Part shown: positions 1,079-29,289 of the stretch, one piece after another
How positions within the stretch are numbered: position 1 is the first letter of the stretch
How the letters are laid out: every line of letters begins with the position of its first letter
Source: Acidimicrobiales bacterium
GTDB lineage: Bacteria; Actinomycetota; Acidimicrobiia; Acidimicrobiales; JAVJTC01
DNA length: 48,424 nt
Assembly: GCA_040219085.1 (NCBI GenBank)
Contig: JAVJTC010000035.1
Location: forward strand, 1-48,424
Direction: 5' to 3'
Notes under the pieces: generated by a model
Database searches by the model: none
What the model was told of the DNA's origin: nothing
What the model saw: the letters and a program-made list of their open reading frames with translations, nothing else
Program-made: the position numbers and the translations under genes

Positions 1079-3658
1079 ATGACCACCTTCACCTTGAACG
1101 GGCGGTCGGTCACTGTCGCCGACGGCCACGAACACCTCCTCGCGGCGCTGCGGGACGAACTGCGCATCATCTCCCCCAAGGACGGATGCTCGCCGTCGGG
1201 CCAGTGCGGATGCTGCGCCGTGCTCGTGGACGGCAAGGCCCGCGTCGCGTGCCAGACCTCCCTGGACAAGACCGAGGGCTCCAACATCACCACGATCGAA
1301 GGGATGGACCCTCTCGAACGCGAGCGCTACGCCGAGGTCTTCGCCGCCACCGGCGCTCTGCAGTGCGGGTTCTGCACCCCGGGCATCGTCATCCGCACCA
1401 AGGCTCTGATCGACAAGAAGGGCGACGAGCTCACCCGCGAGGAAGCGTCCCGCCACCTGGGCGGACACCTGTGCCGCTGCACCGGCTACGTGAAGATCCT
1501 CGACGCCGTGGAGGAACTCGCCCGGCCCACAGGCCTCGCCCGCCCGGAGCTCCCCGGCGGCATCGGCACGCGGGGGATGCGTTACGAGGGCTGTGACCTC
1601 GCCCTGGGTTTCCGTCCCTACATCGACGACATGACCCCCGACGGGTGCCTGCACGCAGCGCTCACCCTCGCCGAGCACGCCCGGGCCGACGTCGTCGCCA
1701 TCGACACCTCAGCAGCGGAAGCCGTCGACGGGGTCGTCCGCGTCCTGACTGCGGCCGACATCCCGGGCGAGTTGCGGGTCGGCCTCATCCACACGGACTG
1801 GCCGGTGATGATCCCCGTCGGCGGACGCACCTCCTATCTCGGCGACGTCCTCGCGGTGGTGGTGGCGAAGGACCGGCCGACCGCACGACGCGCCGCGCAA
1901 CTCGTCGACGTCACCTACGACGTCCTTCGCCCGATCACCGACCCGGTGCGGGCCATCGACGACACCGAGGACGCCGTCTGGGGACTCGACGGCAACGTGT
2001 TGTCCCGCTCCGTCTACGCCCGTGGCGACTTCGACGCCGCGCTCGCGTCCTCGACCCACACGGTCACCGAGACCTTCCAGACCCAACGCATCGACCACGC
2101 CTTCCTCGAACCGGAGTCCACGCTGGCCGTCCCCACCGACGGCGGCGGTCTGTACGTCTATTCGGGCGGCCAGGGCGTGTGGGACGACCGGAACCAGATC
2201 GCCTCGGTACTCGGGATCGACACCTCGAAGATCACCGTGGAACTCGTCTCCAACGGCGGGGCCTTCGGCGGCAAGGAGGACATGTCGAACCAGGCGCAGA
2301 CGGCCCTGGCCGCGTACCTGACCGAACTGCCGGTGCGCTGCACGCTGAGCCGCGAAGAGTCGTTCCTCATCCACACCAAGCGCCACCCGATCCGCATCGA
2401 GATGTCCGCCGGCTGCGACGCCGACGGGAAGCTCACCGCTCTGCGGGCACGGATGATCGGTGACTCCGGCCCGTACGCGTCGGTCGGCATGAAGGTCCTC
2501 GAACGGGCGGCCGGGCACGTCTCGGGCCCCTACGTCGTCGCGAACATCGACGTCGAGGCGATCGCCGCCCGCACCAACAACCCGGTGGGTGGCGCGTTCC
2601 GCGGCTTCGGCGCCAACCAGGCCCAGTTCGCGATGGAAGGGGTCATGGACCGCCTCGCCGCGGCCGTCGGCATCACCGGCTGGGAGATGCGCAACCGCAA
2701 CGTCGTCAGCCCCGGCGTCGTGTGGGGGCCGGGCCAGATCATGGACGACGGGTGCCTCGGCGCCCAGGCCTGTCTGGATGCGATCAAGCCCGCCTATGAC
2801 GAGGCCCGTGCCGCCGGCAAGCCCGTCGGCCTCGGACTCGGCCTCAAGAACTCCGGGCTCGGCAACGGCTTCAAGGAGATCGCCAAGGCGGTCGTGCGCT
2901 TCGAGGCCGACGGCACCGTGGAGGTCCGTCACTGCTGGACCGAGATGGGCCAGGGCGTGCACACCGTGGCCCTGCAGGTGGCCGTGGAGGAACTGGGCGT
3001 CGCGGCCGAGAAGGTCCGCGTCGTCGTCGACACCACCCGTGAGCTCGGCGCCGGCCAGACCACCGGCAGCCGCGGCACGCTCATGGGCGCAGGTTCGGTG
3101 GCCGCCGCATGCAAGGCCGCCATCGAGGGTGGTCGTGAGATCGGTGTGGACTACGAGGGCGAGTACCGCGTCGACTGGACCAACTCGTTGTCCGACGACG
3201 TCGAGAACCCGATCATCCACTCGACGTTCGGCTACGCCGCGCAACTCGTCATCGTGGACCCCGACACCGGTGAGATCGAGAAGGTCGTCGCCGCGCATGA
3301 CGTCGGCCGGGCCGTCAACCCGTTGCTGTGCGAGGGTCAGATCGAAGGATCGGTCCACATGGGTCTGGGCTACGCACTCTCCGAGGGCTTCCCCGTGGAC
3401 GAATCCGGGCGCCCTGCCAACGACACCCTGCGTGCGCTCGCCATCATCCGACCCAAGGACATGCCACCGGTCGAGGTGATCCTCGTGGAATCCGCCCAGC
3501 CGGACTCGCCCTACGGGATCAAGGGCGTCGGCGAGATCGGCCTCGTCCCCACCGCGGGCGCAGTGGCCGCGGCGCTCGCCGCCCACGACGGGCAGTGGCG
3601 CACCGAGTTACCCATGGCCAACGACGCCAACCGCGAGCGGGCCTCGGCGTGGACCTGA
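1079..3658 (+). CDS. Selenium-dependent xanthine dehydrogenase-type molybdenum hydroxylase, 2Fe-2S and Mo domains fused
   Basis: This 859-residue protein should oxidise a purine-like heterocycle at a molybdopterin centre and pass electrons through two 2Fe-2S clusters. Residues 1-75 are a plant-type ferredoxin domain ([12 protein letters not shown], then C58). Residues 85-150 hold the second cluster (C96/C99 in CGFC, C132/C134 in CRC). From about 160 comes the molybdopterin domain, with [36 protein letters not shown] and a terminal GIKGVGE carrying the expected catalytic Glu. The single-chain layout without an FAD domain, the WPVMIPVG segment, and linkage to ssnA and yqeC match the selenium-dependent XDH family (TIGR03311 type), in which Se is a labile cofactor and not selenocysteine. 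No in-frame TGA is present. The start was chosen for the ferredoxin fold and the -10 at 1067. No FAD subunit is in the window, so the electron acceptor is unknown. Confidence 0.88.
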
Positions 3659-4701
3659 GCGCCCTGCCCCCGGACACCACCCCGGGCCTGGTCTGCTCCC
3701 ATCACCACCTCTACTCGGCGCTCGCCCGGGGTATGCCGGCCCCGCCGCGCACACCCGCGGGTTTCGGCGAGATCCTCGAACTCGTCTGGTGGCGCCTGGA
3801 CCGGGCCCTGGACCTCGACATCCTCGCGGCGTCGGCCCGCCTCGGCGCGCTCGAGGCTCTGGAGCGTGGGTGCACGGCGATCATCGACCACAACGAGTCG
3901 CCGAATGCGATCGAGGGATCCCTCGACGTCATCGCCGACGCGTGCGCAGAAGTCGGCGTGCGGGTGTCGTGCGCGTACGGCGTCACCGACCGGCACGGAC
4001 CGGACGGGGCGAAGGCCGGCCTCGCCGAGAACGAGCGGTTTCTGCGGGCCGGCGGTCACGGCTACGTGGGCGTCCACGCCGCGTTCACCTGCACCGACGA
4101 GACCCTGGAGGCCGCGGCCGGCCTGGCCGCCGAACTGGGCGTCGGCGTACACATCCACGTCGCCGAAGGTCCCGACGACGCCGGTGCCGTCGAACGACTC
4201 GCCGGGCTCGCCACCGACGACTGGCTGATCATCCACGGCGTCGGCCTCCCCGACGACCACGGCATCGCGGGCACCATCGTGCACAACCCGCGTTCCAACA
4301 TGAACAACTCGGTCGGCTACGCGCGCCCCACGCGGTTCACCAACCCCGTCGCGCTCGGCACCGACGGGATCGGCGCCGACATGTTGGAGGAGTTCCGCCT
4401 CGCCTACGTGAAGCTACGCGAAGTGGATGTGACCGCGTCGCCGGACGCGCCGTGGGAGTGGCTGTCGACCGGCTGGGACCTCATGCCAGCCGCCCGCGCC
4501 GACCGCGTCCGTTGGACCTACGAACCGATGGACCCGTGGCGACTCGCGTTCAGCCCCGGCGTCTCGCCCACAGAAGTCACCGTGGACGACGAGGTCGTCT
4601 GGGCCGACGGTCGACCGACACGCGTCGACGCCGGCGAGATCCGCGCCCACGCCACCGAGCAGGCCGCGAGACTGTTCACCCGACTCGAGGAGATGCCGTG
4701 A
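3649..4701 (+). CDS. ssnA: SsnA-like amidohydrolase, N-terminally short
   Basis: A 350-residue metal-dependent amidohydrolase close to SsnA, the aminohydrolase found with selenium-dependent molybdenum hydroxylases and thought to act on purine-type products. The [10 protein letters not shown] segment, WWRLDRALD and [16 protein letters not shown] are typical of SsnA. Metal ligands are all present: the HxH in CSHHHLY near the N-terminus, His in HIHVAEG, His in IHGVGL and Asp in TDGIGAD. The likely start is GTG at 3649, overlapping the hydroxylase stop by 10 bases. This gives a protein lacking the roughly 55-60 residue N-terminal beta-sandwich part that SsnA normally has, and the C-terminal sandwich is also brief. 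The region upstream in this frame is only a shadow of the hydroxylase gene, so the shortness looks real. It also overlaps the next gene (GTGA), so all three genes are probably one translationally coupled operon. Confidence 0.85.
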
Positions 4702-10918: not shown

Positions 10919-12493
10919 CTACCGGTGCCGTTGCAGGATCACCGACGCGGCGTTGCGGCCCGACGCGCCCCAGATACCGGCTCCGGGGAAGGTGCCGGCC
11001 CCCGTGAGGTAGAGGCCCTCGACCGGCGTCTCATAGCGGGTCAGTTCGCGGTCGCGGCCCGCCAGCGCCGACAGGGGCGAACCCGAGAAGGACGGCGCGT
11101 AGCCCCGTGACATCGCGAAGTCACGCTCGTAGTCCACCGGGGTGACAACCCTCCAGTCCCGGATGGTCGCGGCGAAGTCGCCCTCGACCAGGGAGCCGTA
11201 ACGATCCAGCCAGCGACGCGGCTCGCCTTCGGGGTCCCACCCACCCGCCAGCGAATACGGCGTGCCGAGGGCCTCCAGGGAGAATACGTGGCCACCTTCG
11301 GGACGCATCGACGCGTCGACCACGGAGGGCAAGTTGACGAACATGACCGGCGACTCCGGCACGTGGCCGGTGGCGACGATGCCGGGAGCGGCGCAGATCT
11401 CCTCGACCGGGGGACAGATGTAGGAGCTCGGGCGCAGCAGGTCATCGGGATCCGACACGGTGTCGGTGACCGGACCGAGGTCGCGGTAGCGGGGCAGCTC
11501 TTCGATGACGGCGTCGATCTTGGACTCGTAGCCGCCCGGCACGGGCCTCGCCGCCCACCGGTCTCGCAGCGCCACGACGCCGGCGGGAGGGTCACGTAGG
11601 AAGTCCACGAGGACCGCCCGGGGATCGCAGGCCCCCACGACGATCCCCGTCTCGATCACCTCCCCGGTGCCGAGTTCGACGCCGACGACACGATCGCCCG
11701 ACGTCACGATCCGCGAGACCCGCGCACCGCAGCGCACAGAGCCGCCGGCCGCTTCGAGTGACCGTTGAAGTGCATCGGTGAGGGCACCACTTCCGCCGGT
11801 CGGTCGACCCACGCCGATCGCGTGGCGGAACGCGTACCCGAGCGCTCCGAGGCCCGTCCCCGGATCGGCCGGCGAGACCCCCCACACGGCCGGCCCCATG
11901 GCCATCAGCGGGCCGACGAGGGCGTCGGTGCTGAAGTACGAGCGGGCGACGTCGAGGGCTGACATCCGGGCGAACCTCGCCATGCGCACGGCACCCCGGA
12001 ATCTGCGACCGGCCACCGAGCGCAGCGCGTTCGCCGGCGTCGGTAGCCGGGTGGCGACCTCCACCAGCAGCGCGGCCACCGGTGCCGTGTCCGCCACGTA
12101 GCGCTTGTACCCGTTCACTTCACCCGGGTGGGTCGCCGACAGGACGTCGAGTGTCTCGGTCACCGAGCGACGCACCGCCCACGGGGTCGAACCGTCCCAG
12201 AACAGGTTCACCATGTTCGGGTCGACGTCGAGGTAGGTCAGGCCGTGGCCCGCCAGATTCAGGTCCTCGGCGATCGAGGTGGTCCGGAAGAAGATGTGGT
12301 CGCAGTTGCAGATGTTGACCCGCGCGCCCACGGCGTCGACGGTCGAGGCGCAGCCGCCGACGGCCCGGCGGGCCTCGAGGACGAGTGGCCTCAGGCCGGC
12401 CCGGGCGAGATAGGCGGCACAGACCAGTCCGTTGTGTCCACCGCCGATGACGACGGCGTCGGGACCTCCGGACGGTCTGATCGACGGCGACAT
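10919..12493 (-). CDS. Phytoene desaturase-like FAD-dependent oxidoreductase
   Basis: A 524-residue flavoprotein with an N-terminal FAD-binding Rossmann motif (VVIGGGHNGLVCAAYLARAG), then LEARRAVGGCAST, and a C-terminal GLYLTGAGTFPGAGIWGASGRNAA that closes the FAD site. This is the layout of the CrtI/phytoene dehydrogenase and pyridine nucleotide-disulfide oxidoreductase domain 2 (PYROXD2)-like group. The GGHNGLV variant is typical of the PYROXD2-like, non-carotenoid branch found in many actinobacteria, so carotenoid synthesis is not implied, and no crtB-type partner is nearby. The start ATG at 12493 lies 27 bases from the divergent creatininase-family start, and an 11-base palindrome covers the start codon. 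The neighbouring hydrolases suggest a catabolic flavoenzyme; this is inference. Confidence 0.85.
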   Translation of the reverse strand: MSPSIRPSGGPDAVVIGGGHNGLVCAAYLARAGLRPLVLEARRAVGGCASTVDAVGARVNICNCDHIFFRTTSIAEDLNLAGHGLTYLDVDPNMVNLFWDGSTPWAVRRSVTETLDVLSATHPGEVNGYKRYVADTAPVAALLVEVATRLPTPANALRSVAGRRFRGAVRMARFARMSALDVARSYFSTDALVGPLMAMGPAVWGVSPADPGTGLGALGYAFRHAIGVGRPTGGSGALTDALQRSLEAAGGSVRCGARVSRIVTSGDRVVGVELGTGEVIETGIVVGACDPRAVLVDFLRDPPAGVVALRDRWAARPVPGGYESKIDAVIEELPRYRDLGPVTDTVSDPDDLLRPSSYICPPVEEICAAPGIVATGHVPESPVMFVNLPSVVDASMRPEGGHVFSLEALGTPYSLAGGWDPEGEPRRWLDRYGSLVEGDFAATIRDWRVVTPVDYERDFAMSRGYAPSFSGSPLSALAGRDRELTRYETPVEGLYLTGAGTFPGAGIWGASGRNAASVILQRHR

Positions 12494-12503
12494 GGCACTG
12501 CCA
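12493..12503. promoter_or_regulatory. Palindrome in the divergent gap
   Basis: TGGCA-C-TGCCA is a perfect dyad inside the 27-base gap between two divergent start codons, next to a minus-strand TAGTCT. A regulator bound here would affect both genes. Confidence 0.35.
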
Positions 12504-12520
12504 AGACTACGGTCGCCGTC

Positions 12521-13306
12521 GTGAACGGACCCCGTCAGACCCGACGCCTCGAGGACCTGACCGCGCGGGCGGTCGCCGACGCCGTCACCGTCGGCTCGAC
12601 GCTCGTGCTCCCCATCGGCGCCGTCGAGCAGCACGGCCCGCACCTGCCGCTGTCGGTGGACCACGTGATCGCGCACGAAGCCGCCTCCGCCGCCGTCGCC
12701 CGTGTCGGCGAGGAACTCGACCTGTGGCTCCTGCCGACCCTGGCGGTCTCGAAGTCCAACGAACACGCGTGGTCGCCGGGGACGTTGTGGCTCTCCGCCG
12801 GGACGATGCTCGCCGTGCTGAACGATCTGGGGCGCAGCGTGGCGGCCACCAGCGCACAGCGACTCGTGCTCCTCAACGGCCACGGAGGGAACTCCTCGCT
12901 GTTGAACGTGGCGTGCCGGGACCTGCGGCTCGCCCACGGACTGAAGACCTTCCTCGTGCACCCGTTCGTCCCACCCGACCAGGGCGGCTCGTCGCCGGAG
13001 GCCGAGCTTGCCATGGGCATCCACGGCGGCCATGAGGAGACCTCGGTGATGCTGCACCTGCGACCCGACCTCGTGGACATGAGCCGTGCCACCCGGCGCA
13101 TCCCCGAGACGCTCGCCGACAACGAGTTCGTCCGCTTCGGCGGACCGGTGAGCTTCGGTTGGCTGTCCGACGACTTCGGCCCCGACGGCCACATCGGCGA
13201 CCCGACGACGGCGACCGCCGAGGATGGCGCACGGATCTTCGCGGCGATGGTGGATCTGCTCTGTCGCCAGATGGCCGAGATCATCCGCTTCGACTACGGC
13301 CGCTGA
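12521..13306 (+). CDS. Creatininase-family amidohydrolase
   Basis: A 261-residue metal enzyme of the creatininase family, which opens cyclic amides such as creatinine and includes formamide hydrolases of riboflavin/F420 precursor type and mycofactocin MftE. Motifs in order are LPIGAVEQHGPHLPL (metal-binding Glu and His), the SVDHVIAHE segment, RLVLLNGHGGNSSLL and GIHGGHEETSVML. All key Glu/His/Asp positions are present. The GTG at 12521 is the only sensible start, because the frame upstream is antisense to the flavoprotein. The next gene follows after 17 bases, so these two are one operon. Substrate unknown; a lactam or ring imide from heterocycle breakdown would fit the location. Confidence 0.87.
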   Translation: MNGPRQTRRLEDLTARAVADAVTVGSTLVLPIGAVEQHGPHLPLSVDHVIAHEAASAAVARVGEELDLWLLPTLAVSKSNEHAWSPGTLWLSAGTMLAVLNDLGRSVAATSAQRLVLLNGHGGNSSLLNVACRDLRLAHGLKTFLVHPFVPPDQGGSSPEAELAMGIHGGHEETSVMLHLRPDLVDMSRATRRIPETLADNEFVRFGGPVSFGWLSDDFGPDGHIGDPTTATAEDGARIFAAMVDLLCRQMAEIIRFDYGR

Positions 13307-13323: not shown

Positions 13324-14211
13324 ATGGAACCCGACATCGACCGCAGCATCCCGTTCGTGGACGCGTACCACCACATCACCGAACCGTCCCGCAACCCCTA
13401 CGAGTGGTTGACCGAGGACGGGGCGATCTACACGGACTATCTGGGCGACTACAAACTCGTCCGGGCCGACTGGCCGATGGAGCGGTTGCTGCGCGAGTTC
13501 TACGGCTCCAACGTCGTCAAGAGCGTGCACGTCGAGGCGGCCTGGAGCGGACCGGACCCCGTGGACGAGACGCGCTATCTCGCCCGGGTCACCGCCGAGC
13601 ACGGTTTCCCCCACGCCTACGTCGTGCTGTGCGACATGGACCGAGACGCTTCAGCGCAACTCGACGCCCACCTGGCGGCGTCCCCGCTGGTGCGCGGGGT
13701 CCGCATCAGAGAACACCCCGAAGGGGGCGGCGACGCCCGGTTCCTCGACAACCTCCGGGCGTGCGCCGAGCGGGACCTGCACTTCGAGACGCGGGCCTGG
13801 CCGGGACGACTCATGGATGCCCACGCGTCGGCCGTCGCCGTACCCGAACTCGACTTCATCGTCGGAGCCAGCGGCATGCCGATGGCCGACACGCCGGAGG
13901 AGTTCGAGCTGTGGCGCACCGAGTTGGGCGCACTGGCCGAACTACCGAACGTGCACTGCAAGATCGGCGGTCTCGGCATGCAACAGCACCACTGGACCGT
14001 GGATTCGATCCGACCCTGGGTCCTCGCGATGATCGAACTGTTCGGTCCCCAGCGGTGCATCTTCGGGACGAACTGGCCGGTGGACGCCGTCTACGGGTCG
14101 TACCTCATGACCGTGGACGCCTACCGGCGGATACTCGCCGAGGCCGACACGTCACCCGAGGACACGCGCCGCATGTTGTGCACCAACGCCGAGGCGTTCT
14201 ACCGGATCTGA
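13324..14211 (+). CDS. Amidohydrolase-2 family metal-dependent hydrolase
   Basis: A 295-residue TIM-barrel hydrolase of the amidohydrolase-2 group (lactonases and decarboxylases such as 2-pyrone-4,6-dicarboxylate hydrolase). It begins with FVDAYHHITE, where DxHxH is usual, so the first ligand position reads Tyr-His-His. It continues with VKSVHVEAAWSG, RGVRIREHPEG, a middle LHFETRAWPGRL where a DLH-type motif would be normal, and the C-terminal RCIFGTNWPVDAVYGSY, which supplies the conserved Asp. A strong AGGAGG site precedes the ATG at 13324. The altered metal motif suggests a non-standard metal centre or metal-free chemistry. It is co-transcribed with the creatininase-family gene. Confidence 0.82.
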   Translation: MEPDIDRSIPFVDAYHHITEPSRNPYEWLTEDGAIYTDYLGDYKLVRADWPMERLLREFYGSNVVKSVHVEAAWSGPDPVDETRYLARVTAEHGFPHAYVVLCDMDRDASAQLDAHLAASPLVRGVRIREHPEGGGDARFLDNLRACAERDLHFETRAWPGRLMDAHASAVAVPELDFIVGASGMPMADTPEEFELWRTELGALAELPNVHCKIGGLGMQQHHWTVDSIRPWVLAMIELFGPQRCIFGTNWPVDAVYGSYLMTVDAYRRILAEADTSPEDTRRMLCTNAEAFYRI

Positions 14212-14245: not shown

Positions 14246-15034
14246 TCACGCCGTCAGATACTCGACCGGTGGCTCGAGGTCGTCGCCAGGTCGGTAGTGG
14301 GGAACCAGCACCACCCGCTCGACGGGCGGGCCTGATCCTCCGCCGCCGAGTACACCGGCGGCGATCTCGCCGGCCGTGTCTCGCCGATCCTCGGCCACCT
14401 GGGACAGGATCACGGCGAGCCGCGCACCGGACGGGACTCCCCTGCCCGCGCCGTCGGAGCTCGTGGCGAGCGTGACGTAGGTCTGTGCGTCGACCGTGTC
14501 GGACACGGAGGCCCCGGTGACCCCGGCGACACGCTCGGGCCGGTGGCAGACCTCGGAGATGACACCCCCGAGGGCCGTGAGACCCATGACTGCGACCACG
14601 AGGTCGGTGCCCGGCGATATGACGGGCTCGTAGTGAGCGGGCGCCTTGAGCGAGCGGCGCCGGGCACCGTCGGCTTCGACGAGGACGTGGTGGACCGGCA
14701 GGTCGTCGACGAGGTCGGCCGGGATACCGAACGCCTTGGTCCCCTCGCGTCGTTCCACGACGATCACCGGATACCCCTCGCCGCTGACCGAGACGATCGT
14801 GGCGCGGAGGTCGCCGGGGGTCGACAGCTCGACGATCGGTCCGCGCAGCTGGTCGGTGCCGAACTTGGTCGTCGTCGTCACGACGACCGTGCGCGCAGCA
14901 GCGCACAGCTCGGTGCCCAGGCGGAAGATCGTCGTGGTCTTGCCGCCACCGCCGACGACGGAGGTGACGCCGGTCGGGCCGAGCCCGAGAGCGGTGGTGA
15001 GTGAGTCCGTGGACGTCGCCCCGATCCCACTCAC
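14246..15034 (-). CDS. yqeC: YqeC, selenium-dependent hydroxylase accessory protein
   Basis: A 262-residue P-loop protein with VVGGGGKTTTIFRLG near residue 28, VVVTTTTKFG, and the diagnostic HHVLVEADGARRRSLKAPA-x-HYEPVI-like block in the middle. This matches YqeC (TIGR03172), a putative accessory protein of selenium-dependent molybdenum hydroxylases, consistent with the Se-XDH-type gene at 1079. The exact activity of YqeC is not established. The start is taken as GTG at 15034, which overlaps the upstream stop (GTGA); an earlier in-frame start would cut deep into the previous gene. It is the last gene of a three-gene overlapping operon with two flavodoxin-fold oxidoreductases. Known Se-cofactor partners (YqeB, MocA-like nucleotidyltransferase, SelD) are not in the window. 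Confidence 0.87.
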   Translation of the reverse strand: MSGIGATSTDSLTTALGLGPTGVTSVVGGGGKTTTIFRLGTELCAAARTVVVTTTTKFGTDQLRGPIVELSTPGDLRATIVSVSGEGYPVIVVERREGTKAFGIPADLVDDLPVHHVLVEADGARRRSLKAPAHYEPVISPGTDLVVAVMGLTALGGVISEVCHRPERVAGVTGASVSDTVDAQTYVTLATSSDGAGRGVPSGARLAVILSQVAEDRRDTAGEIAAGVLGGGGSGPPVERVVLVPHYRPGDDLEPPVEYLTA

Positions 15035-15558
15035 CGGATCAGCCGTGCGCAGCGGGTCTCGACCTGTTCGAGCCACGCCGTGAAGTCGGCCTCGTCACAC
15101 CCGTCGGCGTCATAGAGGGAGATCCACGTGCTCCGGCACCGCCACGGTGCGGCGAGGCGCAGTCCTCGCATCACCAGCTTGCGACCGGGCTCACCCTCGA
15201 GGACGTTCATGAACTTGCCGGAGCCATGCCCTGTGACGGCGACGAAGCGCCGCAGCGAACCCAACAGAGCCCTGGCCTCACGGCGGTCGTCGGGCAGGAC
15301 GGTGTCGATCCAACTCTTCAGCGCAGCCGGCTGGCCGCCCCACCACGTTGGATAGACCAGGACGAGTACGCGGGTCCCGGCCAAGAGCGCACGACACCCG
15401 TCGACGTCGACCGGTTCGTACGCGTCGACCTCGGTCGTCCGCACCCCGGCCGACGCCAGGCCCGCAACTGCGCGGGCCCGTGCCGCCTGGGTGAGGCTCC
15501 CGGGAACCGGGTGTGAGTGCACGACGAGGGCGTGCAGCGCGGTTGGTGTCTCCTTCAC
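15031..15558 (-). CDS. Flavodoxin-fold NAD(P)H-dependent oxidoreductase (1)
   Basis: A 175-residue protein of the NAD(P)H dehydrogenase (quinone)/flavodoxin-2 family. The first strand ALVVHSHPVPGSLTQAA forms the FMN phosphate loop. The middle LVLVYPTWWGGQPAALKSWIDTVL is the classic PTWW-x3-PA-x-LK isoalloxazine-contact motif. Such enzymes reduce quinones or flavins with NAD(P)H. The start GTG at 15558 overlaps the stop of the preceding gene, and its own stop overlaps the yqeC start. The fixed order suggests an electron-transfer role linked to the Mo hydroxylase or its cofactor; this is inference. Confidence 0.85.
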   Translation of the reverse strand: MKETPTALHALVVHSHPVPGSLTQAARARAVAGLASAGVRTTEVDAYEPVDVDGCRALLAGTRVLVLVYPTWWGGQPAALKSWIDTVLPDDRREARALLGSLRRFVAVTGHGSGKFMNVLEGEPGRKLVMRGLRLAAPWRCRSTWISLYDADGCDEADFTAWLEQVETRCARLIR

Positions 15559-16166
15559 CGGGCACCTCCCAACGCGCGTTCCACGCGGCGCAGGAGTTGG
15601 CGGGAACGGTCCTGCGTACCGATCGAGTAGGCGGCCACGAACCGGCGACGGGCCAACGGGTGCACGATGGTCCGCAACGCCCGCAAGAGATACAGCCGTC
15701 CACCGTCGCCGGCCGCCCGCACCTCGCGCCGCGAGCGGCCGTGGGTGGTGATCGCGGTGATCCGCCGGATGTTGGTCAGCCCGGGGCGCACCTTGCCGCT
15801 GCGTTCGGAGAAACGGAAGCCGACGCCGGGAACCAGCGTCCTGTCGAGCAGTCCCTTCAGGGCGGCGGGCGGCGCGAACCAGACGGAGCGGTAGACGAAC
15901 ACGATCTCGTCGACCGAACGGATCAGGTCCGCGTACCGGGCGACGTCGTCGCTGATGATCGGCGTGTCGGAGTGGTAGGCCTCACGCTCGGCCCGACTCA
16001 TCGCCGGTTGGAACGCCTCGTCGGCCAGCACGAGTCTGTCCACCCGGTGGCCGGCGCCGACGAGGGCGGCATGGGCCATGTCGGCGATCTCACGGTCGAG
16101 GGCGGCCCGGTCGCCGCTGGGCGCGACGCCGGACGCATCGACGAGGAGCACTCGGCGGGGGGCCAT
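15555..16166 (-). CDS. Flavodoxin-fold NAD(P)H-dependent oxidoreductase (2)
   Basis: A 203-residue paralogue of the next gene. It has VLLVDASGVAPSGDRAALD at the FMN loop and IVFVYRSVWFAPPAALKGLLDRTLVPGVGF, with VW in place of the usual WW, then TTHGRSRREVRAAGDGG. The latter part resembles flavodoxin-2 family quinone reductases of the MdaB/YwrO type. The ATG at 16166 has GACAAT six bases upstream and no ribosome site, so it is probably leaderless. It is the first gene of the operon with the second oxidoreductase and yqeC, each overlapping by four bases. It is divergent from the cytosine-deaminase-like gene. Confidence 0.83.
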   Translation of the reverse strand: MAPRRVLLVDASGVAPSGDRAALDREIADMAHAALVGAGHRVDRLVLADEAFQPAMSRAEREAYHSDTPIISDDVARYADLIRSVDEIVFVYRSVWFAPPAALKGLLDRTLVPGVGFRFSERSGKVRPGLTNIRRITAITTHGRSRREVRAAGDGGRLYLLRALRTIVHPLARRRFVAAYSIGTQDRSRQLLRRVERALGGAR

Positions 16167-16262: not shown

Positions 16263-17615
16263 ATGACCCACCGTCTCGTCCTCACCGGTGCGACAGTCGT
16301 CGACCCTCCAGCGGACGCTGACCTGGTCGACCGGGACGGCGATCCGCCACCGGCCGCGCCGGCGCTGCGCCGGGTCGACGTCCACATCGGCGACGGGATC
16401 GTGACCGCCGTCACCGAACCGGGTGCGGGAACGGACACCGATGCCGCCCCCGGCGGGGACACGGCCGACCCCGTGACCGTGCAGGACCTCAGTGGAATGT
16501 TGCTCCTCGGGGCGGCCGCCGACCCCCACACCCACCTCGACAAGGCGCTCTCGGCGGACCGCGTCGTCAACGTGGCCGGCGATCTCACCGGAGCGATCGA
16601 CGCCTGGATGCGCTACCGGGTCGACGCAACCGTCGCCGACATGGCGGATCGGGCGACCCGCGCTGTCGAGATGCTCGTCGCGAACGGGGTGACGGCGGTG
16701 CGCACCCATGTGGACCTGGGCGAGGGAATCGGCGTTCGGGCCGCCGAGGCTCTGGCCGAGACCCGGGAGCGGATGGGGCACCTCGTGACGATGCAGGTCG
16801 TCGGACTCCCCACCTGTCCGGTGACCGGTGACGACGGGGCAGTCAACCGGGCCGATCTCCTGACAGCCGTCGAACGGGGTCTGATCGACCTGGTCGGAGG
16901 CGCCCCTGCGATCGACCCCGATCCCCACGGCGCCATCGACTGGCTCCTCGACCTCGCCCAGGGCACCGGCCTGGACGTCGACTTCCACATCGACGAGACA
17001 CTCGACTTCGACATGTTGAGCCTCGAGCATCTGGCTCGGCGGGTGATGGAACGCGGCTTCGACAACCGGGTGACGGCGAGCCACTGCGTCAGCCTCGGGA
17101 TGCAGTCCCCCTGGGATCAACAGCGTGTGGCCCGCGCCGTGGCCGAGGCCGGCATCGGCGTGATCACGCTGCCCCAGACCAACCTCTTCCTCCAGGCCCG
17201 CGGGGTGACGACGGCGCCACCGCGGGGCCTGACGGCCATCGGGATGCTGCGCGGCGCCGGGGTCGCCGTCGCGGCGGGGGCCGACAACATCCAGGATCCG
17301 TTCAACCCGATGGGCCGGGCCGACCCCTTCGAGACGGCATCGCTGCTCGTGAGCGCCGGCCACCGTCTACCCGAGGTCGGGTGGGCGATGGTGTCCGACG
17401 ACGCCCGGACGGTGATGGGTCTGCCACCGGCGGGGCCGGTCGTCGGCCGGAGGGCGGATCTGGTGGCGGTCGGCGCGGCGTCACTGCGCGAGGCCGTGGC
17501 GTCGGGACCCACCGCCCGCCGCACCTGGGTGGCAGGCCGCCTCGTGGCCGAGCGGACGGTGGCGGGGGGACTCCTCGAGAAGACCGGAGAGGAGTCCGAC
17601 GAAGCGGAGACCTGA
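16263..17615 (+). CDS. Cytosine deaminase-like amidohydrolase
   Basis: A 450-residue amidohydrolase with a complete CodA-type metal site. PHTHLDKAL gives the HxH. FHIDETLDFD gives the third His and the catalytic Glu. ASHCVSLG gives the fourth His, and AGADNIQDPFNPMGRADP gives the Asp with the characteristic DPF loop. CodA-type enzymes deaminate cytosine, isoguanine or related rings, and some relatives act on other N-heterocycles. The N-terminal beta-sandwich (TGATVVDP, VDVHIGDGIVTAV) is complete but contains a Pro/Asp-rich insert (residues 15-35 and 55-75). The ATG at 16263 is supported by the -10 at 16251. Its position between the yqeC operon and an LLM gene suggests deamination of a purine or pyrimidine; the substrate is inference. 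Confidence 0.85.
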   Translation: MTHRLVLTGATVVDPPADADLVDRDGDPPPAAPALRRVDVHIGDGIVTAVTEPGAGTDTDAAPGGDTADPVTVQDLSGMLLLGAAADPHTHLDKALSADRVVNVAGDLTGAIDAWMRYRVDATVADMADRATRAVEMLVANGVTAVRTHVDLGEGIGVRAAEALAETRERMGHLVTMQVVGLPTCPVTGDDGAVNRADLLTAVERGLIDLVGGAPAIDPDPHGAIDWLLDLAQGTGLDVDFHIDETLDFDMLSLEHLARRVMERGFDNRVTASHCVSLGMQSPWDQQRVARAVAEAGIGVITLPQTNLFLQARGVTTAPPRGLTAIGMLRGAGVAVAAGADNIQDPFNPMGRADPFETASLLVSAGHRLPEVGWAMVSDDARTVMGLPPAGPVVGRRADLVAVGAASLREAVASGPTARRTWVAGRLVAERTVAGGLLEKTGEESDEAET

Positions 17616-17686: not shown

Positions 17687-18682
17687 ATGACGGTGACTCC
17701 GTGGGGTGTGTGGCTCGAGCCGACGGTCCCCGCCGCGCGCCTTGTCGAGATGGCCGTGGCGGCGGAGGAGGCCGGTGCAGAGGTGTGCCTCGTCGCGGAC
17801 GAGGGCAACGGGCGGGACGTGTGGGTGACACTCGGCGCCATCGCGACGGCCACCGAGCGGATCGTCATCGGCCCCGGGGTGACCAACCCGTTCACCCGCC
17901 ATCCGGTGACCACGGCGACCGCCGCGGCCACCCTCGCCGAGATGGCCCCCGGCCGTGTGTGGGCCGGGCTGGGCGCCGGCGCGCCCTCCACGCTCGCGCC
18001 CATCGGGTTCGAAGCGGAGAGGCCCCTGCCGGCGCTGCGTGAGTCGATGGCCACCGCGCAGCAACTCCTCGACGGTGAATCCTCCGGCCGTGCGTTCCTG
18101 GGGTGGTTCGAAGGCCACGTGCCGCTTGTGATCGGCGGCCGTGGGCCGCTGATCCGCCAACTCGCGATCGACCACGCCGACTGGTACCTGGTGGCTGCCA
18201 CGCCCATCGAGGACCTCGCCGAGATCAGCGAGACGGTGCGGGCGGGGATGTGCAAGGTGGCCTGGACCACCCACATCGCCACCGACGACTGCGAGCGGGC
18301 GAAGGTCCTCGAGGTCATCTCGAGGGTGATCACCCAGGACCACGTGGCGGCGGGCCATCACCCGGAGACCACGGCGCCGCTGTACCTCCAGGAGCACTTC
18401 GGCGTCGATCAGTTGACGGCGGCCCGGGTGCGGCGGGCGGCCGAGAACCGGGTCCCCGACCACGTCATCGGCCTGTTGCCGGACGATCTCGTGGACCGGT
18501 TCGCGCTGGCGGGTTCGGTGGCGCAGTGTCGACGGCGCCTCGCCGACATGGCCGACCTCGTGGATCTCGTGCTCGTGGCGATGAACGAGCCTGACCCCGA
18601 ACTCGACTGGATCGGCGTCGCCGCCGAGGTCTTCGCCGACAGACCGCTGCCCGCTACTGCTCCAGGGCCTGGATCTCCGTAA
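17687..18682 (+). CDS. LLM-class flavin-dependent oxidoreductase
   Basis: A 331-residue luciferase-like TIM-barrel protein. It has WGVWLEPTVPAARLVEMAVAAEEAGAEVCLVADE at the start, RIVIGPGVTNPFTRHPVTTATAAATLAEM and RVWAGLGAGAP, the common LLM core, then VPLVIGGRGPLIRQLAIDHADWYLV. The RIVIGPGVTNPFTRHP segment resembles F420-dependent methylene-tetrahydromethanopterin reductase-like proteins. It follows the cytosine-deaminase-like gene by 71 bases on the same strand and probably shares its transcript. The 3' end overlaps the convergent secreted-protein gene by 29 bases. It is the second of three LLM enzymes in this neighbourhood. Confidence 0.85.
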   Translation: MTVTPWGVWLEPTVPAARLVEMAVAAEEAGAEVCLVADEGNGRDVWVTLGAIATATERIVIGPGVTNPFTRHPVTTATAAATLAEMAPGRVWAGLGAGAPSTLAPIGFEAERPLPALRESMATAQQLLDGESSGRAFLGWFEGHVPLVIGGRGPLIRQLAIDHADWYLVAATPIEDLAEISETVRAGMCKVAWTTHIATDDCERAKVLEVISRVITQDHVAAGHHPETTAPLYLQEHFGVDQLTAARVRRAAENRVPDHVIGLLPDDLVDRFALAGSVAQCRRRLADMADLVDLVLVAMNEPDPELDWIGVAAEVFADRPLPATAPGPGSP

Positions 18683-21974: not shown

Positions 21975-22817
21975 TCAGGGCCCCGCTGCCGTCGAGGCGT
22001 GCCAACGCCCCGTGAGTGCGCGATTGAGCCAGCTGAACACCCAGAAGACGACGATTCCGAGGGCCGACGAGACGATGATCGTGGCGATGAGGCCGGCGCC
22101 GTCGGCCAGACCCCGGAACCGGTTGATGAGCGTTCCGAGGCCCGGCTCGCCCCGACCGAAGAGGAACTCTCCGACCACAGCGCCGATGACCGACAGGCCC
22201 GCCGAGATCCGGAAGCCCGTGAACATCGCCGGCACCCCGGCGCGCAACTCGAGCTTCGTGAGCTGCGTGAACCGCGAGGCGCCGTGGAGGTGCAACAGGT
22301 CATAGAGGTTGCGGTCGGCGGACTTCAGCCCGAACAGCGTGTTCGTGATGATCGGGAAGATCGCGACCAGCACGCACACGAGCACCCGCTTCTTGAGGTC
22401 CTCTCCCAACCAGAAGAACCACGGGTCCAGGTCGTTCTGGAAGAAGACCCCGATGATCGGCACGAGCGCGAGGATCGGCACGGCCTGGGCGAGGACCGCC
22501 CACGGGAACAACGCCCGTTCGGCGAGGGGCGACAGCGACATCACGATGGCGAGCCCGACGCCCAACACGATCGCCGTCACCAGACCGATGAACGCGGACT
22601 GGGCGGTCACCCACGTGGCATCGATGAGATCGGCCCGGACGTCACCGTCGGCGAACGCGTCCGACCACACCTCGTGGGGAGGTGGCAGCAGGATCCCCCG
22701 GCGCTGCGGCGTGGAGATGAAGACGTAGCTGATGAGGTACCAGACGCCGACCATCACGCCGGCGAACGCCAGAGGCGGTCCGGCGGTCCTGGCTGCGGTG
22801 GCGGCCCGGCTCACCAT
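21975..22817 (-). CDS. NitT/TauT-type ABC transporter permease (1)
   Basis: A 280-residue permease of the BPD-type family (SsuC/TauC-like). It has about six hydrophobic segments, including GVMVGVWYLISYVFI near residue 20, FIGLVTAIVLGVGLAIVM and VLVCVLVAIFPIITNTLFGLKSA. The EAA-like cytoplasmic loop reads LHLHGASRFTQLTKLELRAGVPAMFTGFRISAGLSVIGAVVGEFL, which contacts the ATPase. The PHEVW motif near residue 48 is usual in this group. TAGGAT lies 7 bases before its ATG, so it may have its own leaderless promoter despite being 28 bases behind the binding-protein gene. It would pair with the permease at 24203 in a heterodimeric importer for a small organic, perhaps aromatic or heterocyclic, substrate. 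Confidence 0.87.
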   Translation of the reverse strand: MVSRAATAARTAGPPLAFAGVMVGVWYLISYVFISTPQRRGILLPPPHEVWSDAFADGDVRADLIDATWVTAQSAFIGLVTAIVLGVGLAIVMSLSPLAERALFPWAVLAQAVPILALVPIIGVFFQNDLDPWFFWLGEDLKKRVLVCVLVAIFPIITNTLFGLKSADRNLYDLLHLHGASRFTQLTKLELRAGVPAMFTGFRISAGLSVIGAVVGEFLFGRGEPGLGTLINRFRGLADGAGLIATIIVSSALGIVVFWVFSWLNRALTGRWHASTAAGP

Positions 22818-22824
22818 GGCGGTG

Positions 22825-22830
22825 ATCCTA
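22825..22830 (-). promoter_or_regulatory. -10 box, leaderless type, for permease 1
   Basis: On the minus strand TAGGAT lies 7 bases before the ATG at 22817. The substrate-binding gene ends at 22846, so the element lies in the short gap between the two genes. Confidence 0.35.
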
Positions 22831-22845
22831 TGACGCCGGGGGACC

Positions 22846-24054
22846 TCAGAAGCCGAGCGAGATGTCCGGGTCGAGGAACTCGTTGGTGAACAGGTCCTCG
22901 GCCGACAGGTCGTCGGGGACGTCGATCCCCGCGGCCTCGTAGACCGGCGTCAACTGCGCGATCAGACCGTCGATGCGGTCCCCGTCGAAGTCACCGACGG
23001 TGCCGTCGGGGCCGTCCGTGATGAGGCCGAGATCCACCATCGCCTCTGTGCCTGCCGCGTGGCTCTCGGAGCTCGCAGTCCAGAAACTGTTCAGGTCGAT
23101 GACGAACTGGAGCAGCATCTCGTTGACCGGTTCGGGGTCGGCGAAGTAGTCGACGATGGCCTGCTGGAAGATCGGCACGACCGCCTCGAGGCAGTCGCGG
23201 CTCTCGGTGAGAGCCGCGGGCTTGACGCTCAGCGCACCCTGGTAGATCGGAAGCACGTCGTCGATGAGCAGGAAGTCGACCGGCTTGTCGAAGCCGAGTT
23301 CGTTCTCGTAGCGGTAGGGCTCGTTGGTGGCGAAGCCCTGCTGCACGAGGTTCCCCTCGGCAATGAACCGGGTGGGGGACCCGTCGTAGGAGCCGTCGAC
23401 CTGGTCGGCGCTGAGCTGACCGTCGGCGACGAGATAGTCCATGTAGGCCGCGCCACCGAAGTACAGGACCGGCGCTTCGGCCTCGCCGATGTCGGCGAAG
23501 GTCTCGAAGCTGTAGACGTCGGGGTCCCACATCAGGATCTGGGGACCACGCTCGAAGTAGTTGAGTACGTGGACCACCGGCGTCGTCGTCGCCGACTGGA
23601 TTGCCTCGTCGGTGTTGACGTAGGCCATGAAGATGTCGGGGTCGGTGTAGAACTGGCCGGTCTGGGTGTCGGCGTCGGTGTAGGGGCCACCGGCGCGGAT
23701 CTCGAGGTCGATGTCGGTGCCCATGAGGGGCCCGGTGTAGATGCCGTTGTCGGCGTCGAAGGTGCCGTCGATGCCAGCCGCCTGGTAGGTGAAGCCGTGC
23801 TCGGGTTCGGGGAACCAGTCCGTCTGCACGATCAGCGGGTTCGGGCAGATGTCGGCGACCGAAACCGTGCCGGTGTCTCCGTCGTCGGTGACCCCGTCGT
23901 CGGACGCCCCGTCGTCGGTGACCCCGTCCTCGGACGCCCCGTCGTCGGTGACCCCGTCGTCGGCGGGGGCGGTCGTGTCGTCATCGTCGCCGCACGCGGC
24001 GGCCACCAGGGCGAGCACGACGAACAGGGCGATCAACCATCGGCTTCGCTTCAT
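22846..24054 (-). CDS. NMT1/THI5-like ABC substrate-binding lipoprotein
   Basis: A 402-residue lipoprotein with signal RSRWLIALFVVLALVAAAC (lipobox AAAC) and an acidic repeat linker of GVTDDGAS(E/D)D units (residues about 35-60). The binding domain begins LIVQTDWFPEPEHGFTYQAAG. TDWFP-x-P-EHG and a following G-x-Y, then IRAGGPYTD, are hallmarks of NMT1/THI5/SsuA-like binding proteins that bind thiamine-pyrimidine precursors, sulfonates, nitrate or other small anions. YFERGPQILMWDPD and FGGAAYMDYLV follow. The ATG at 24054 fits the signal; an earlier TTG in frame adds only six residues. Its ligand is unknown, but the nucleobase-type enzymes nearby make a pyrimidine- or purine-like ligand attractive. 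Confidence 0.86.
   Translation of the reverse strand: MKRSRWLIALFVVLALVAAACGDDDDTTAPADDGVTDDGASEDGVTDDGASDDGVTDDGDTGTVSVADICPNPLIVQTDWFPEPEHGFTYQAAGIDGTFDADNGIYTGPLMGTDIDLEIRAGGPYTDADTQTGQFYTDPDIFMAYVNTDEAIQSATTTPVVHVLNYFERGPQILMWDPDVYSFETFADIGEAEAPVLYFGGAAYMDYLVADGQLSADQVDGSYDGSPTRFIAEGNLVQQGFATNEPYRYENELGFDKPVDFLLIDDVLPIYQGALSVKPAALTESRDCLEAVVPIFQQAIVDYFADPEPVNEMLLQFVIDLNSFWTASSESHAAGTEAMVDLGLITDGPDGTVGDFDGDRIDGLIAQLTPVYEAAGIDVPDDLSAEDLFTNEFLDPDISLGF
23881..23963. repeat. 30-base tandem repeat inside the binding-protein linker
   Basis: Two full copies (23881-23910 and 23911-23940) differ by one base and a third is partial (to 23963). Each holds two related 15-base halves. It encodes the acidic DDGVTDDGAS linker between lipid anchor and binding domain, and its copy number could vary between strains. 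Confidence 0.7.
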
Positions 24055-24202
24055 GGCTCCTCGGTCCTCCAACGGGCAACCGCCCGGATTTCGCGTCGAT
24101 ACGCCCGATTGGATATCAGGTGATCGGCCGCAACCGTCCGCCTCGGGGCCGCGTTCACATGCAGTTCATACTCAGCACGGGCGGGCGTACTGCCCGGCAA
24201 GA
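24055..24202. other. Intergenic, no gene seen
   Basis: This 148-base gap lies between the permease-2 stop and the binding-protein start, both on minus. It probably holds the binding-protein promoter and has a short CGGGC-4-GCCCG hairpin at 24073-24086. No other feature was recognised. Confidence 0.3.
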
Positions 24203-25081
24203 TCAGGCGCGTCCCGTCGTCGCCCAGCGGCGTGTGAGGCGGTCGCCAACCACCCCGAAGAGTGCGAACAGTGCCACGCCCAGCGCCGACGCGGCGAAGA
24301 TGGAGGCGTAGATCTGCGGGCCCTGTCCGCGCGATGCCGAGCTCTGGTTGATGAGTACCCCGATGCCCTTCGCGTCGCCCGCCTGGAAGAAGAACTCGCC
24401 GACGACGGCTCCGACAACGGCGAGACCCGCCGCTATCCGGAACCCCGTGAACATGGCGGGGACGGCCGCAGGGAGATCCAGCTTCACGAGACGGGTGACC
24501 CGCCCGGCGCCGTGGAGCCTGAAGAGATCGCGCATGGACGGCTCGACGGACTTCAGCCCGAACAGGGTGTTGGCGATGATCGGGAAGATCGAGATGAGAA
24601 TCGTGACGATCACCCGGGAGCGGAACTCGAAACCCCACCACAGTCCGATCAGTGGCGTGACGGCGATCACGGGAACCGTCTGCAGGGCGACGGCGTAGGG
24701 GAACAACGTGCGTTCGATCCAGCTCGCCTGGTTCATCAGGACCGCGAGTGCGATGCCGAGCGCGATCGAGATGGACAGCCCGACGACGGTCACCCAGGTC
24801 GTGGCCCAGAGGTTGTCGACGATCTCCGAGAAGCGATCCCAGTCGAAGACGGCCCTGTCGACGACGACGTGGGGCTCGGGAAGAACGAAGCGGGACTCGG
24901 CGGGGATCAGGGCGTTCGCGACGAGATACCAGAGCCCGACGAACGCAGCTGCAACGACGAGCGGTGGTCCGACCACCCTCGCACCACGATCGACCCAGGT
25001 CCCGGACCGGCCCTGCCTCGAACCGGCCGGTTCCGGATCAGAGTCCGGTGCCGCCACGGCGCTCGTCGGTGCCTGCGTCAT
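24203..25081 (-). CDS. NitT/TauT-type ABC transporter permease (2)
   Basis: A 292-residue permease related to the one at 21975: shared FPIIANTLFGLKS, a LHGAGRVTRLVKLDLPAAVPAMFTGFRIAAGLAVVGAVVGEF loop and an equivalent LPEPHVVV motif. A basic, Pro/Ala-rich cytoplasmic N-terminus of about 45 residues precedes the first membrane segment, longer than in permease 1. The start is taken as ATG at 25081 (MTQAP); an upstream in-frame start adds 12 residues. It precedes the binding protein and permease 1 on the same strand, with a 148-base gap that suggests two transcription units. The two permeases probably form one heterodimeric channel. Confidence 0.87.
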   Translation of the reverse strand: MTQAPTSAVAAPDSDPEPAGSRQGRSGTWVDRGARVVGPPLVVAAAFVGLWYLVANALIPAESRFVLPEPHVVVDRAVFDWDRFSEIVDNLWATTWVTVVGLSISIALGIALAVLMNQASWIERTLFPYAVALQTVPVIAVTPLIGLWWGFEFRSRVIVTILISIFPIIANTLFGLKSVEPSMRDLFRLHGAGRVTRLVKLDLPAAVPAMFTGFRIAAGLAVVGAVVGEFFFQAGDAKGIGVLINQSSASRGQGPQIYASIFAASALGVALFALFGVVGDRLTRRWATTGRA

Positions 25082-25141
25082 CGCCCTCAAGCTTGCCACG
25101 CGCCGGGGCCCGGCCAACGGGGCCCGGCCAGCTTCGCCCGA

Positions 25142-27316: not shown

Positions 27317-28135
27317 ATGAACGAGCCCGCGGACGCGCCGACGGGGGCCGGCCCCGCCACCGGATCCGCCACCGTGGTCGAGGCTCACGGCGACCCGATC
27401 CTGTCGTTCGACGAGGTCGCCAAGACGTTCCCGGACGGAACCCACGCTCTCGACCGGGTGTCGCTGACGGTTCGGCGCGGCGAGTTCGTCTCGATCGTCG
27501 GACCGTCCGGCTGCGGAAAGTCGACTCTGCTGAGACTCGCCGCGGGACTCGACGAACCCACATCGGGCAGCGTCGAAGTGGGGCGCGGCGATCTCGGCTA
27601 CATCTTCCAGGACGCCACGCTGATGCCGTGGCGCACGGTGCTGTCCAACGTCGAGTTGCTCGGGGAACTCGACGGCCTCCCACGCCACGTTCGCCGTGAG
27701 CTCGCCCGCGACGCCATACAGACGGTTGGTCTGGAGGGATTCGAGAACCACTACCCGAAGGCGCTGTCGGGCGGCATGCGCATGCGGGTGTCCATCGCCC
27801 GGAGCCTGACCCTCAATCCGTCGGTCTTCCTGTTCGACGAACCGTTCGGCGCGCTCGACGAGATCACCCGGGAGCGACTCAACGAGGAGACACTGCGGCT
27901 GTTCCTCTCCGAGCGCTTCGCGGGCCTGTTCATCACGCACTCGATCTACGAGGCCGTGTTCCTGTCCACCCGTGTGCTCGTCATGTCACCGCGGCCGGGC
28001 CGCATCGTCGCCGAGTTCGACGTGCCCTTCGGCTACCCCCGCCCGCCGGAGCTCCGCTTCGGGGCGGACTTCGCCGAGCTCACAGGAGCCGTGTCCGGCG
28101 CATTGCGGGGTTCGTTCCCCGAGGAGGGTCCATGA
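27317..28135 (+). CDS. NitT/TauT-type ABC transporter ATPase
   Basis: A 272-residue ATPase with all motifs: Walker A GPSGCGKST (about residues 62-70), Q-loop YIFQDATLMPW, signature LSGGMRMRVSIARSL, Walker B VFLFDEPFGALDE and H-loop FITHSIYEAVFL. The MPWRTVLSNVELLGELDG segment and the C-terminal DVPFGYPRPPELR place it with SsuB/TauB/NrtD-type importers, which use the two permeases and NMT1-like binding protein found at 21975-25081 on the opposite strand. It overlaps the next LLM gene by four bases (ATGA), so that enzyme and the transporter ATPase are made together. This coupling suggests that the LLM enzyme acts on the imported compound; this is inference. Confidence 0.9.
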   Translation: MNEPADAPTGAGPATGSATVVEAHGDPILSFDEVAKTFPDGTHALDRVSLTVRRGEFVSIVGPSGCGKSTLLRLAAGLDEPTSGSVEVGRGDLGYIFQDATLMPWRTVLSNVELLGELDGLPRHVRRELARDAIQTVGLEGFENHYPKALSGGMRMRVSIARSLTLNPSVFLFDEPFGALDEITRERLNEETLRLFLSERFAGLFITHSIYEAVFLSTRVLVMSPRPGRIVAEFDVPFGYPRPPELRFGADFAELTGAVSGALRGSFPEEGP

Positions 28136-29289
28136 CCATGCAGACCGGCGTCTTCTTCTTCGGTGGTGTCGAGATGGACGACGCGGGCGCCGGGCCGCCC
28201 GCACCGACCGACCGCCGCTACACGCAGAAGGAGATGTGGCACGCCGCCGAGCGGATGCTCGACATGGGCGTACGCGCCGACCAGCTCGGCTACGACTCGT
28301 TCTGGCTGACCGAGCACCACTTCCAGCACGAGGGCTACGAGGTCCTGCCGAACTGTCTGCTGTTCGGCGCGGTCCTCGCGGAGCGGACCGAACGGATCAG
28401 GATCGGGGCGATGTTCAACATCGTCCCGCAGTGGCATCCGCTGCGCTTCGCCGAGGACTTCGCGACGATGCACAACCTCTCGGGCGGCCGGGGCATCCTC
28501 GGCGTCGGTCGCGGCACCGTGCCCCGCGAGGCCCAGGCGCTCGGGACCGTCATCGGCAGCTACGACAACCCCGACAAGGCCGACGCGGACCGCATCAACC
28601 GCCAGACCTTCGCCGAGTCGGTCGACGTCATCCTGGCGGCTCTCGACAACGAGACGTTCTCGTACTCGGGGGAGATCTTCACCTTCCCGCCGCCGGGCAT
28701 CCCCGACCGGGGCGGATTCGTCGAGACGCTGACCCTCGTTCCCCGCCCGCTGTACCCCTACGAGGTCTGGCAGCCCATCACCTCGCCCCCCACGCTCGAG
28801 GCGGTCCCCGCCCGGGGCTTCGGTGGCGTGTTCTGGTTGCGCAACCACCTGTTCGTCAAGGAGTGGTGGGAGCGATTCGCCGAGATCTGGGAGGACACCC
28901 ACGGCTCACCCCTCGCCGCGGGCGAGAAGCGCAACCTGTGCCTCAACGTGCGGATCGAGGACACCCACGAGAAGGCCTGGGATACCGCCCGCGACGGCCA
29001 CGACGAGTTCTGGAAGTTCCTCGGCCCCTACGGCTGGAGCCGCGGGTACATGGGCGCCGACGGCAACCCGGCTGAGCCGGGGCTCATCCCGACGCTCGAG
29101 GAGTCCGTCGAGAACCGGACATGGGCGATCGGCTCGCCCGCGGAGGTGGCCGAACAGATTGCCCACTACCGGGATCTGCTGGGCGGAATGAACCACCTCA
29201 CCCTGTTCCCGAACTTCCCCGGGGACACCTACGAGAAGTCCGAGGAGCAGATGCAGCGCTACGCCGAGGAGGTCATGCCGCTGCTGTAG
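28132..29289 (+). CDS. LLM-class flavin-dependent monooxygenase
   Basis: A 385-residue luciferase-like protein, longer than the other two. It has DSFWLTEHHFQHEGYEVLPN, RIRIGAMFNIVPQWHPLRFAEDFATMHNLSGGRGILGVGRGTVPREA, and an insertion around QPITSPPTLEAVPARGFGGVFW. The EHHF and GGR-x-ILGVGRG motifs are typical of FMN-dependent alkane/bacterial-luciferase-type monooxygenases and suggest FMNH2/O2 chemistry. The ATG at 28132 overlaps the ABC ATPase stop, so this is an importer-linked oxygenase, reminiscent of RutA- or SsuD-type systems, where an LLM enzyme attacks an imported N- or S-compound. It ends 17 bases into the convergent PLP-enzyme gene. Confidence 0.86.
   Translation: MTMQTGVFFFGGVEMDDAGAGPPAPTDRRYTQKEMWHAAERMLDMGVRADQLGYDSFWLTEHHFQHEGYEVLPNCLLFGAVLAERTERIRIGAMFNIVPQWHPLRFAEDFATMHNLSGGRGILGVGRGTVPREAQALGTVIGSYDNPDKADADRINRQTFAESVDVILAALDNETFSYSGEIFTFPPPGIPDRGGFVETLTLVPRPLYPYEVWQPITSPPTLEAVPARGFGGVFWLRNHLFVKEWWERFAEIWEDTHGSPLAAGEKRNLCLNVRIEDTHEKAWDTARDGHDEFWKFLGPYGWSRGYMGADGNPAEPGLIPTLEESVENRTWAIGSPAEVAEQIAHYRDLLGGMNHLTLFPNFPGDTYEKSEEQMQRYAEEVMPLL

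Follow-up and report, generated by a model that had tools for sequence, protein, structure and literature searches.

A yqeC gene in an operon with two flavodoxin-fold oxidoreductase genes in an Acidimicrobiales bacterium: a probable insertion into a catabolic cluster

Results

The window, by which we mean the whole stretch of 48,424 nt analysed here, is from contig JAVJTC010000035.1 of an Acidimicrobiales genome that we call G000; f and g numbers below are family and genus labels, and L numbers are locus handles. Three genes on its minus strand form an overlapping series. The first, flvA (16166, ATG, to 15555, TGA), encodes a Flavodoxin_2 (NQO1/KefF-like) NAD(P)H oxidoreductase of 203 aa, and the second, flvB (15558, GTG, to 15031, TGA), encodes the other Flavodoxin_2 oxidoreductase of the pair, with 175 aa. 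The third is yqeC (15034, GTG, to 14246), whose 262-aa product is a member of TIGR03172 and a predicted SIMIBI-class P-loop NTPase. A 4-nt overlap, GTGA, joins flvA to flvB and flvB to yqeC. The initial annotation had the coordinates, the strand, both overlaps and the three gene identities right. It also proposed that the overlaps hold the three proteins in a fixed ratio, which is not shown: since 4-nt overlaps are commonplace across the window (378-638/635-892, 3649-4701/4698-5696, 27317-28135/28132-29289 and others), they indicate an operon and not a fixed ratio.

YqeC, the product of the only yqeC gene in G000, clears the curated TIGR03172 cut-off of 73.05 with 148.7 bits and reaches 117 bits against PF19842. 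Its AlphaFold2 model (pLDDT 93.2) has the SIMIBI P-loop NTPase fold and a Walker A motif. VIA-align placed SRP/FtsY GTPases at the top (Z 12.4, rmsd 3.1 over 178 residues), followed by FlhF, ParF, MinD and Trc40, with SRP/FtsY, MinD/ParF and Trc40 all at Z ~11-12; the Foldseek list, with a best E of 0.0023, includes MeaB and UreG. Conserved residues comprise the P-loop G28, G30, G31 and K32 (G-x-G-G-K), in which K32 and the glycines are kept in at least 90%, and E120-A121-D122-G123 (EADG), which follows a strand and which we take to resemble the ExxG motif of metallochaperone GTPases. A likeness to HypB was considered and set aside, as the hhalign alignment with E. coli HypB covers the P-loop alone. 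YqeC thus shares a predicted P-loop fold (Z up to 12.4) with the SIMIBI maturation NTPases MeaB and UreG, SRP GTPases being the nearest in fold, but its identity to them is just 10-17%. On the strength of the model, YqeC is most likely an NTP-driven maturation factor. A search of named genomes for near relatives of window yqeC gave only 15 distant loci, mainly in Bacillota.

A candidate client of YqeC is encoded in the same window, 10 kb away and on the opposite strand. The gene at 1079-3658 (plus strand) encodes a molybdenum hydroxylase like the selenium-dependent xanthine dehydrogenases (Se-XDH), which at 817 bits over its full length narrowly misses the TIGR03311 cut-off of 830.45. It overlaps a gene for an SsnA-like aminohydrolase (3649-4701, plus strand; TIGR03314, 228 bits, below cut-off), and genes for luciferase-like (LLM-class) proteins follow. 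Orthologues of the hydroxylase lie 1.8-2.5 kb from the start of yqeC at four f43 loci (L060, L063-L065), where yqeB is present as well. The initial annotation described the enzyme as lacking an FAD subunit: a domain search recovered [2Fe-2S] and molybdopterin domains, fused in one chain, but no FAD domain, and none of the window genes scanned was recognised as encoding an FAD subunit. Its suggestion that the two FMN proteins provide the missing electron route, with FlvA and FlvB as acceptors for the hydroxylase, draws on exactly this gap. However, fused enzymes that lack FAD exist apart from flavodoxins. No xdhB is listed for the E. faecalis hydroxylase EF_2570 (PMC2276186), so the absence is not peculiar to the window; around the f43 orthologues, the flanks fetched contain no Flv gene, and there is no PF02525 gene near yqeC. 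We therefore consider a role of FlvA and FlvB as acceptors for the hydroxylase very improbable.

FlvA (60.7 bits) and FlvB (48.3 bits) both pass the PF02525 cut-off of 27. They share their fold family and a conserved WxxxPAxLK-type motif with the Flavodoxin_2 quinone and FMN reductases, and the solved relatives of FlvA are 3lcm/4f8y and NQO2. They differ from NQO1/2, KefF/KefG and 3lcm/4f8y in forming an ancient two-gene hetero-pair that scores far below the KefF and KefG equivalog cut-offs (FlvB, 33 against 210 and 25 against 240) and whose copies in the window have diverged. Window FlvA lacks the usual HPxxxS motif and window FlvB is short by ~20 residues, and either protein may therefore have changed function. 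In the tree, first and second Flv genes form two clades (support 100/99) and their order is fixed, frequently with a 4- or 7-nt overlap; at the two exceptions, L122 and L128, the labels appear to have been swapped by ORF extension and not by biology. A search with FlvB found matches in 43 of the 395 class genomes, mostly two adjacent ones, and 35 of these 43 genomes have no yqeC. The same overlapping tandem occurs without yqeC in many genomes. Judged from these sequences, FlvA-FlvB is an ancient co-inherited hetero-pair of paralogues whose history is independent of, and older than, its link with yqeC.

The operon is surrounded by genes that point to catabolism. Divergent from flvA across a 96-nt gap is a gene for a cytosine-deaminase-like amidohydrolase (16263-17615, plus strand; PF07969), followed by one for an LLM-class oxidoreductase (17687-18682, plus strand; F420_mer-like, below cut-off). 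On the other side of yqeC are genes for an Amidohydrolase_2 protein (13324-14211, plus strand; PF04909), a creatininase-family amidohydrolase (12503-13306, start approximate, plus strand; PF02633, 222 bits) and a phytoene-dehydrogenase-like FAD oxidoreductase, PhytDH (10919-12490, minus strand; PF01593/CrtO-like, below cut-off), with orthologues of the last in L125, L152, L153 and L068. Positions 21975-25117 (minus strand) hold an ABC permease, a cluster-specific binding protein and a second permease, and L124, L125, L139, L148, L152 and L153 have an orthologous set. The binding protein (22846-24072) is conserved across the cluster and matched no Pfam family at E 1e-5. A further LLM-class oxidoreductase is encoded at 28132-29289 (plus strand; PF00296, 141 bits). 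From this gene content the locus is probably a catabolic cluster for a nitrogen-containing ring compound; we found no literature on this combination of genes. In f51, f40, f48, f54, f20 and f7, the Flv pair stands beside some of the ABC transporter, cytosine-deaminase-like, creatininase, PhytDH-like and LLM genes. At one f7g68 locus, a UbiD gene and a UbiX-like gene (L236:3098-5060) lie within a cluster of yqeC, PhytDH, LLM and flvA genes.

LLM genes lie within ~650 nt of Flv genes at 8 of the 13 loci outside f2, and orthologues of the LLM gene at 28132-29289 abut or overlap them in L139, L148 and L152. The two-component flavin monooxygenases SsuD/SsuE and RutA/RutF offer a comparison, since the LLM genes at these three loci likewise abut genes for flavodoxin-fold reductases. 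The cluster differs in having two reductases instead of one, its LLM protein may use F420, and the pairing is suggested by gene adjacency in relatives. In the window the nearest LLM gene is 1.5 kb from flvAB on the other strand, and none is co-directional or adjacent. LLM genes do not neighbour the Flv pairs of f2; the pair thus serves other purposes too. At the f2 loci among L121-L149, the FlvA-FlvB tandem stands alone in many genomes, apart from catabolic genes.

L125 bears on the origin of the operon. It carries PhytDH (minus), creatininase (plus), flvB (minus), flvA (minus), a 96-nt gap and the cytosine-deaminase-like gene (plus), which is the order of the window minus yqeC and the Amidohydrolase_2 gene; an additional amidohydrolase gene lies between PhytDH and creatininase. 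In both f51 loci, L124 and L125, flvB-flvA is head-to-head with the cytosine-deaminase-like gene (gaps of 49 and 96 nt) and yqeC is absent. Because L125 keeps the order of the window without yqeC, the gene was probably inserted in the lineage of the window. Most simply, both yqeC and the Amidohydrolase_2 gene would have been inserted between creatininase and flvB.

If the operon reflected a general partnership, the genes should be neighbours elsewhere, a check that the initial annotation proposed for Actinomycetota. YqeC proteins over cut-off occur in 60 of 395 class genomes and 58 of 397 order genomes. When the 60 class yqeC genomes were searched in full with PF02525, an adjacent Flavodoxin_2 gene was found in G000 and in none of the other 59; in G388 and G324, a flavodoxin gene lies 6-7 kb from yqeC on the same contig. 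No adjacent FlvA/FlvB-family gene was found at ~40 further order yqeC loci or at 27 yqeC loci elsewhere in the phylum (1.5 kb flanks), searches that used a local FlvA/FlvB HMM, which generic Flavodoxin_2 proteins can escape. An AzoR-type Flavodoxin_2 gene, of a type other than FlvA/FlvB, and a MarR gene lie ~1.3 kb from yqeC in f132 (L222:8280-8867, L218:354-941). FlvB and YqeC do not co-occur beyond chance, YqeC being found in 8 of 43 genomes with FlvB and 52 of 352 without (odds ratio 1.3, p=0.50), and we found no literature linking yqeC with flavodoxin. These results leave little room for a direct partnership with YqeC in which FlvA and FlvB pass electrons to selenium or molybdenum chemistry during cofactor insertion, an idea raised in the initial annotation. 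The overlapping genes of the window speak for it, as does the spacing of at most 7.3 kb between yqeC and flavodoxin genes in f7g68 and f132. Nevertheless, adjacency is confined to G000 among the yqeC loci examined, most genomes with the Flv pair lack yqeC, and the pair is independent and older; we regard the mechanism as unsupported and improbable.

What remains of the link is a looser association. Flv genes lie 3.6-7.3 kb from yqeC in f132 (L212, L217) and f7g68 (L236, L244). Within the class set, a Flavodoxin_2 gene within 7.3 kb of yqeC is expected in ~0.17 genomes and was seen in three, from two lineages (Poisson P(≥2) 0.013, which is optimistic because the window was itself chosen for adjacency); f132, outside this statistic, is a third lineage. 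Window YqeC is phylogenetically isolated and falls outside the group (support 95/87) that contains the f7g68 and f132 proteins, so yqeC has entered the cluster on at least two occasions. In f136, yqeC lies beside the orthologous ABC transporter with no Flv genes, and it therefore seems to be drawn to the pathway and not to the flavodoxins. The presence of the same cluster with yqeC in f7g68 and f132, on separate yqeC lineages, suggests co-regulation at the level of the pathway. A YqeC-flavodoxin link thus holds as a catabolic cluster shared by f1 (the family of the window), f7g68 and f132, and is not supported as conserved adjacency or a shared mechanism.

A further possibility is that chance brought yqeC to this site and that its client is an unrelated molybdenum hydroxylase elsewhere in the genome, the recurrence of the cluster being noise in gene order. 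The isolation of window YqeC and the uniqueness of its arrangement fit such a neutral insertion. We nonetheless think it unlikely, given that a Se-XDH-like gene is present in the same window, that co-localisation exceeds chance by the optimistic estimate above, and that f132 adds its third lineage.

As to selenium, G000 encodes SelA (contig C42) and a SelD that scores 341 bits against a cut-off of 125, whose gene (L004:8874-9992) has an in-frame TGA at the expected catalytic Sec position (SHGAGUACK). A search for tRNA-Sec in two stretches of G000 found none, and YqeB (TIGR03309) had no match in this 96.4% complete genome. Most class yqeC loci have an XdhC-like gene and yqeB, then yqeC, and 57 of the 60 class yqeC genomes, G000 among them, have SelD over cut-off. 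Twelve of the 60 (G000 and 11 others) carry YqeC but neither an over-cut-off YqeB nor a split or incomplete yqeB copy; all twelve belong to the order of the window, are 93-98% complete and have SelD over cut-off. The SelD-YqeB-YqeC signature is used as a marker of the selenium-cofactor trait (PMC5029168). G000, which has no YqeB, does not carry this signature, and the twelve genomes conflict with the joint use of YqeB and YqeC as such a marker.

Discussion

We lean, by a narrow margin over doubt, toward an explanation in which the parts of the operon meet through a pathway. FlvA and FlvB would be NAD(P)H-dependent FMN or quinone reductases, most likely supplying reduced flavin to the luciferase-like monooxygenase of the catabolic cluster. 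In the lineage of the window, yqeC would have been inserted downstream of flvB, to which it is probably translationally coupled, and YqeC would most likely mature, in an NTP-driven step, the molybdenum hydroxylase whose gene is 10 kb distant. What would then connect YqeC to the flavodoxins is joint expression in a single pathway, with no reaction in common: the operon needs no further explanation than that FlvAB and YqeC are both produced whenever the pathway is active. The distance and opposite strand of the hydroxylase gene, the lack of an LLM gene adjacent to the window flvAB, the f2 pairs with no LLM genes nearby, and the divergence of FlvA and FlvB count against this explanation. Maturation may also differ in the window genome, since YqeB is missing.

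Compared with the SelD-YqeB-YqeC loci for selenium-dependent molybdenum hydroxylases of E. coli, E. faecalis and C. difficile (PMC2276186, PMC11448449), the window likewise has an over-cut-off YqeC, SelD in the genome, and a nearby Se-XDH-like hydroxylase with an SsnA-like gene. In contrast to those loci, its genome has no YqeB and yqeC overlaps a flavodoxin gene inside a transporter and LLM cluster. It is possible, although we consider it rather doubtful, that YqeC has a role independent of YqeB and joined one flavodoxin, LLM and transporter catabolic cluster on two or three occasions, in separate YqeC lineages, with a whole group in the order keeping YqeC and SelD without YqeB. If that is the case, the cluster would hold an unrecognised molybdenum- or selenium-dependent step.

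Since the old Flv pair normally exists without yqeC, flvA-flvB-yqeC seems to be the product of a single insertion into a cluster for a breakdown pathway and not a conserved machine, and the operon is not evidence of a general YqeC-flavodoxin link. FlvA-FlvB is a conserved unit in its own right and a candidate heterodimeric reductase. The genomes with YqeC and no YqeB are the more promising lead. In C. difficile, deletion of yqeC had no obvious phenotype, while yqeB is required for selenium-dependent purine use (PMC11448449). Genomes that have yqeC and selD without yqeB could help to separate the roles of YqeC and YqeB, as could clusters into which yqeC was recruited by itself.
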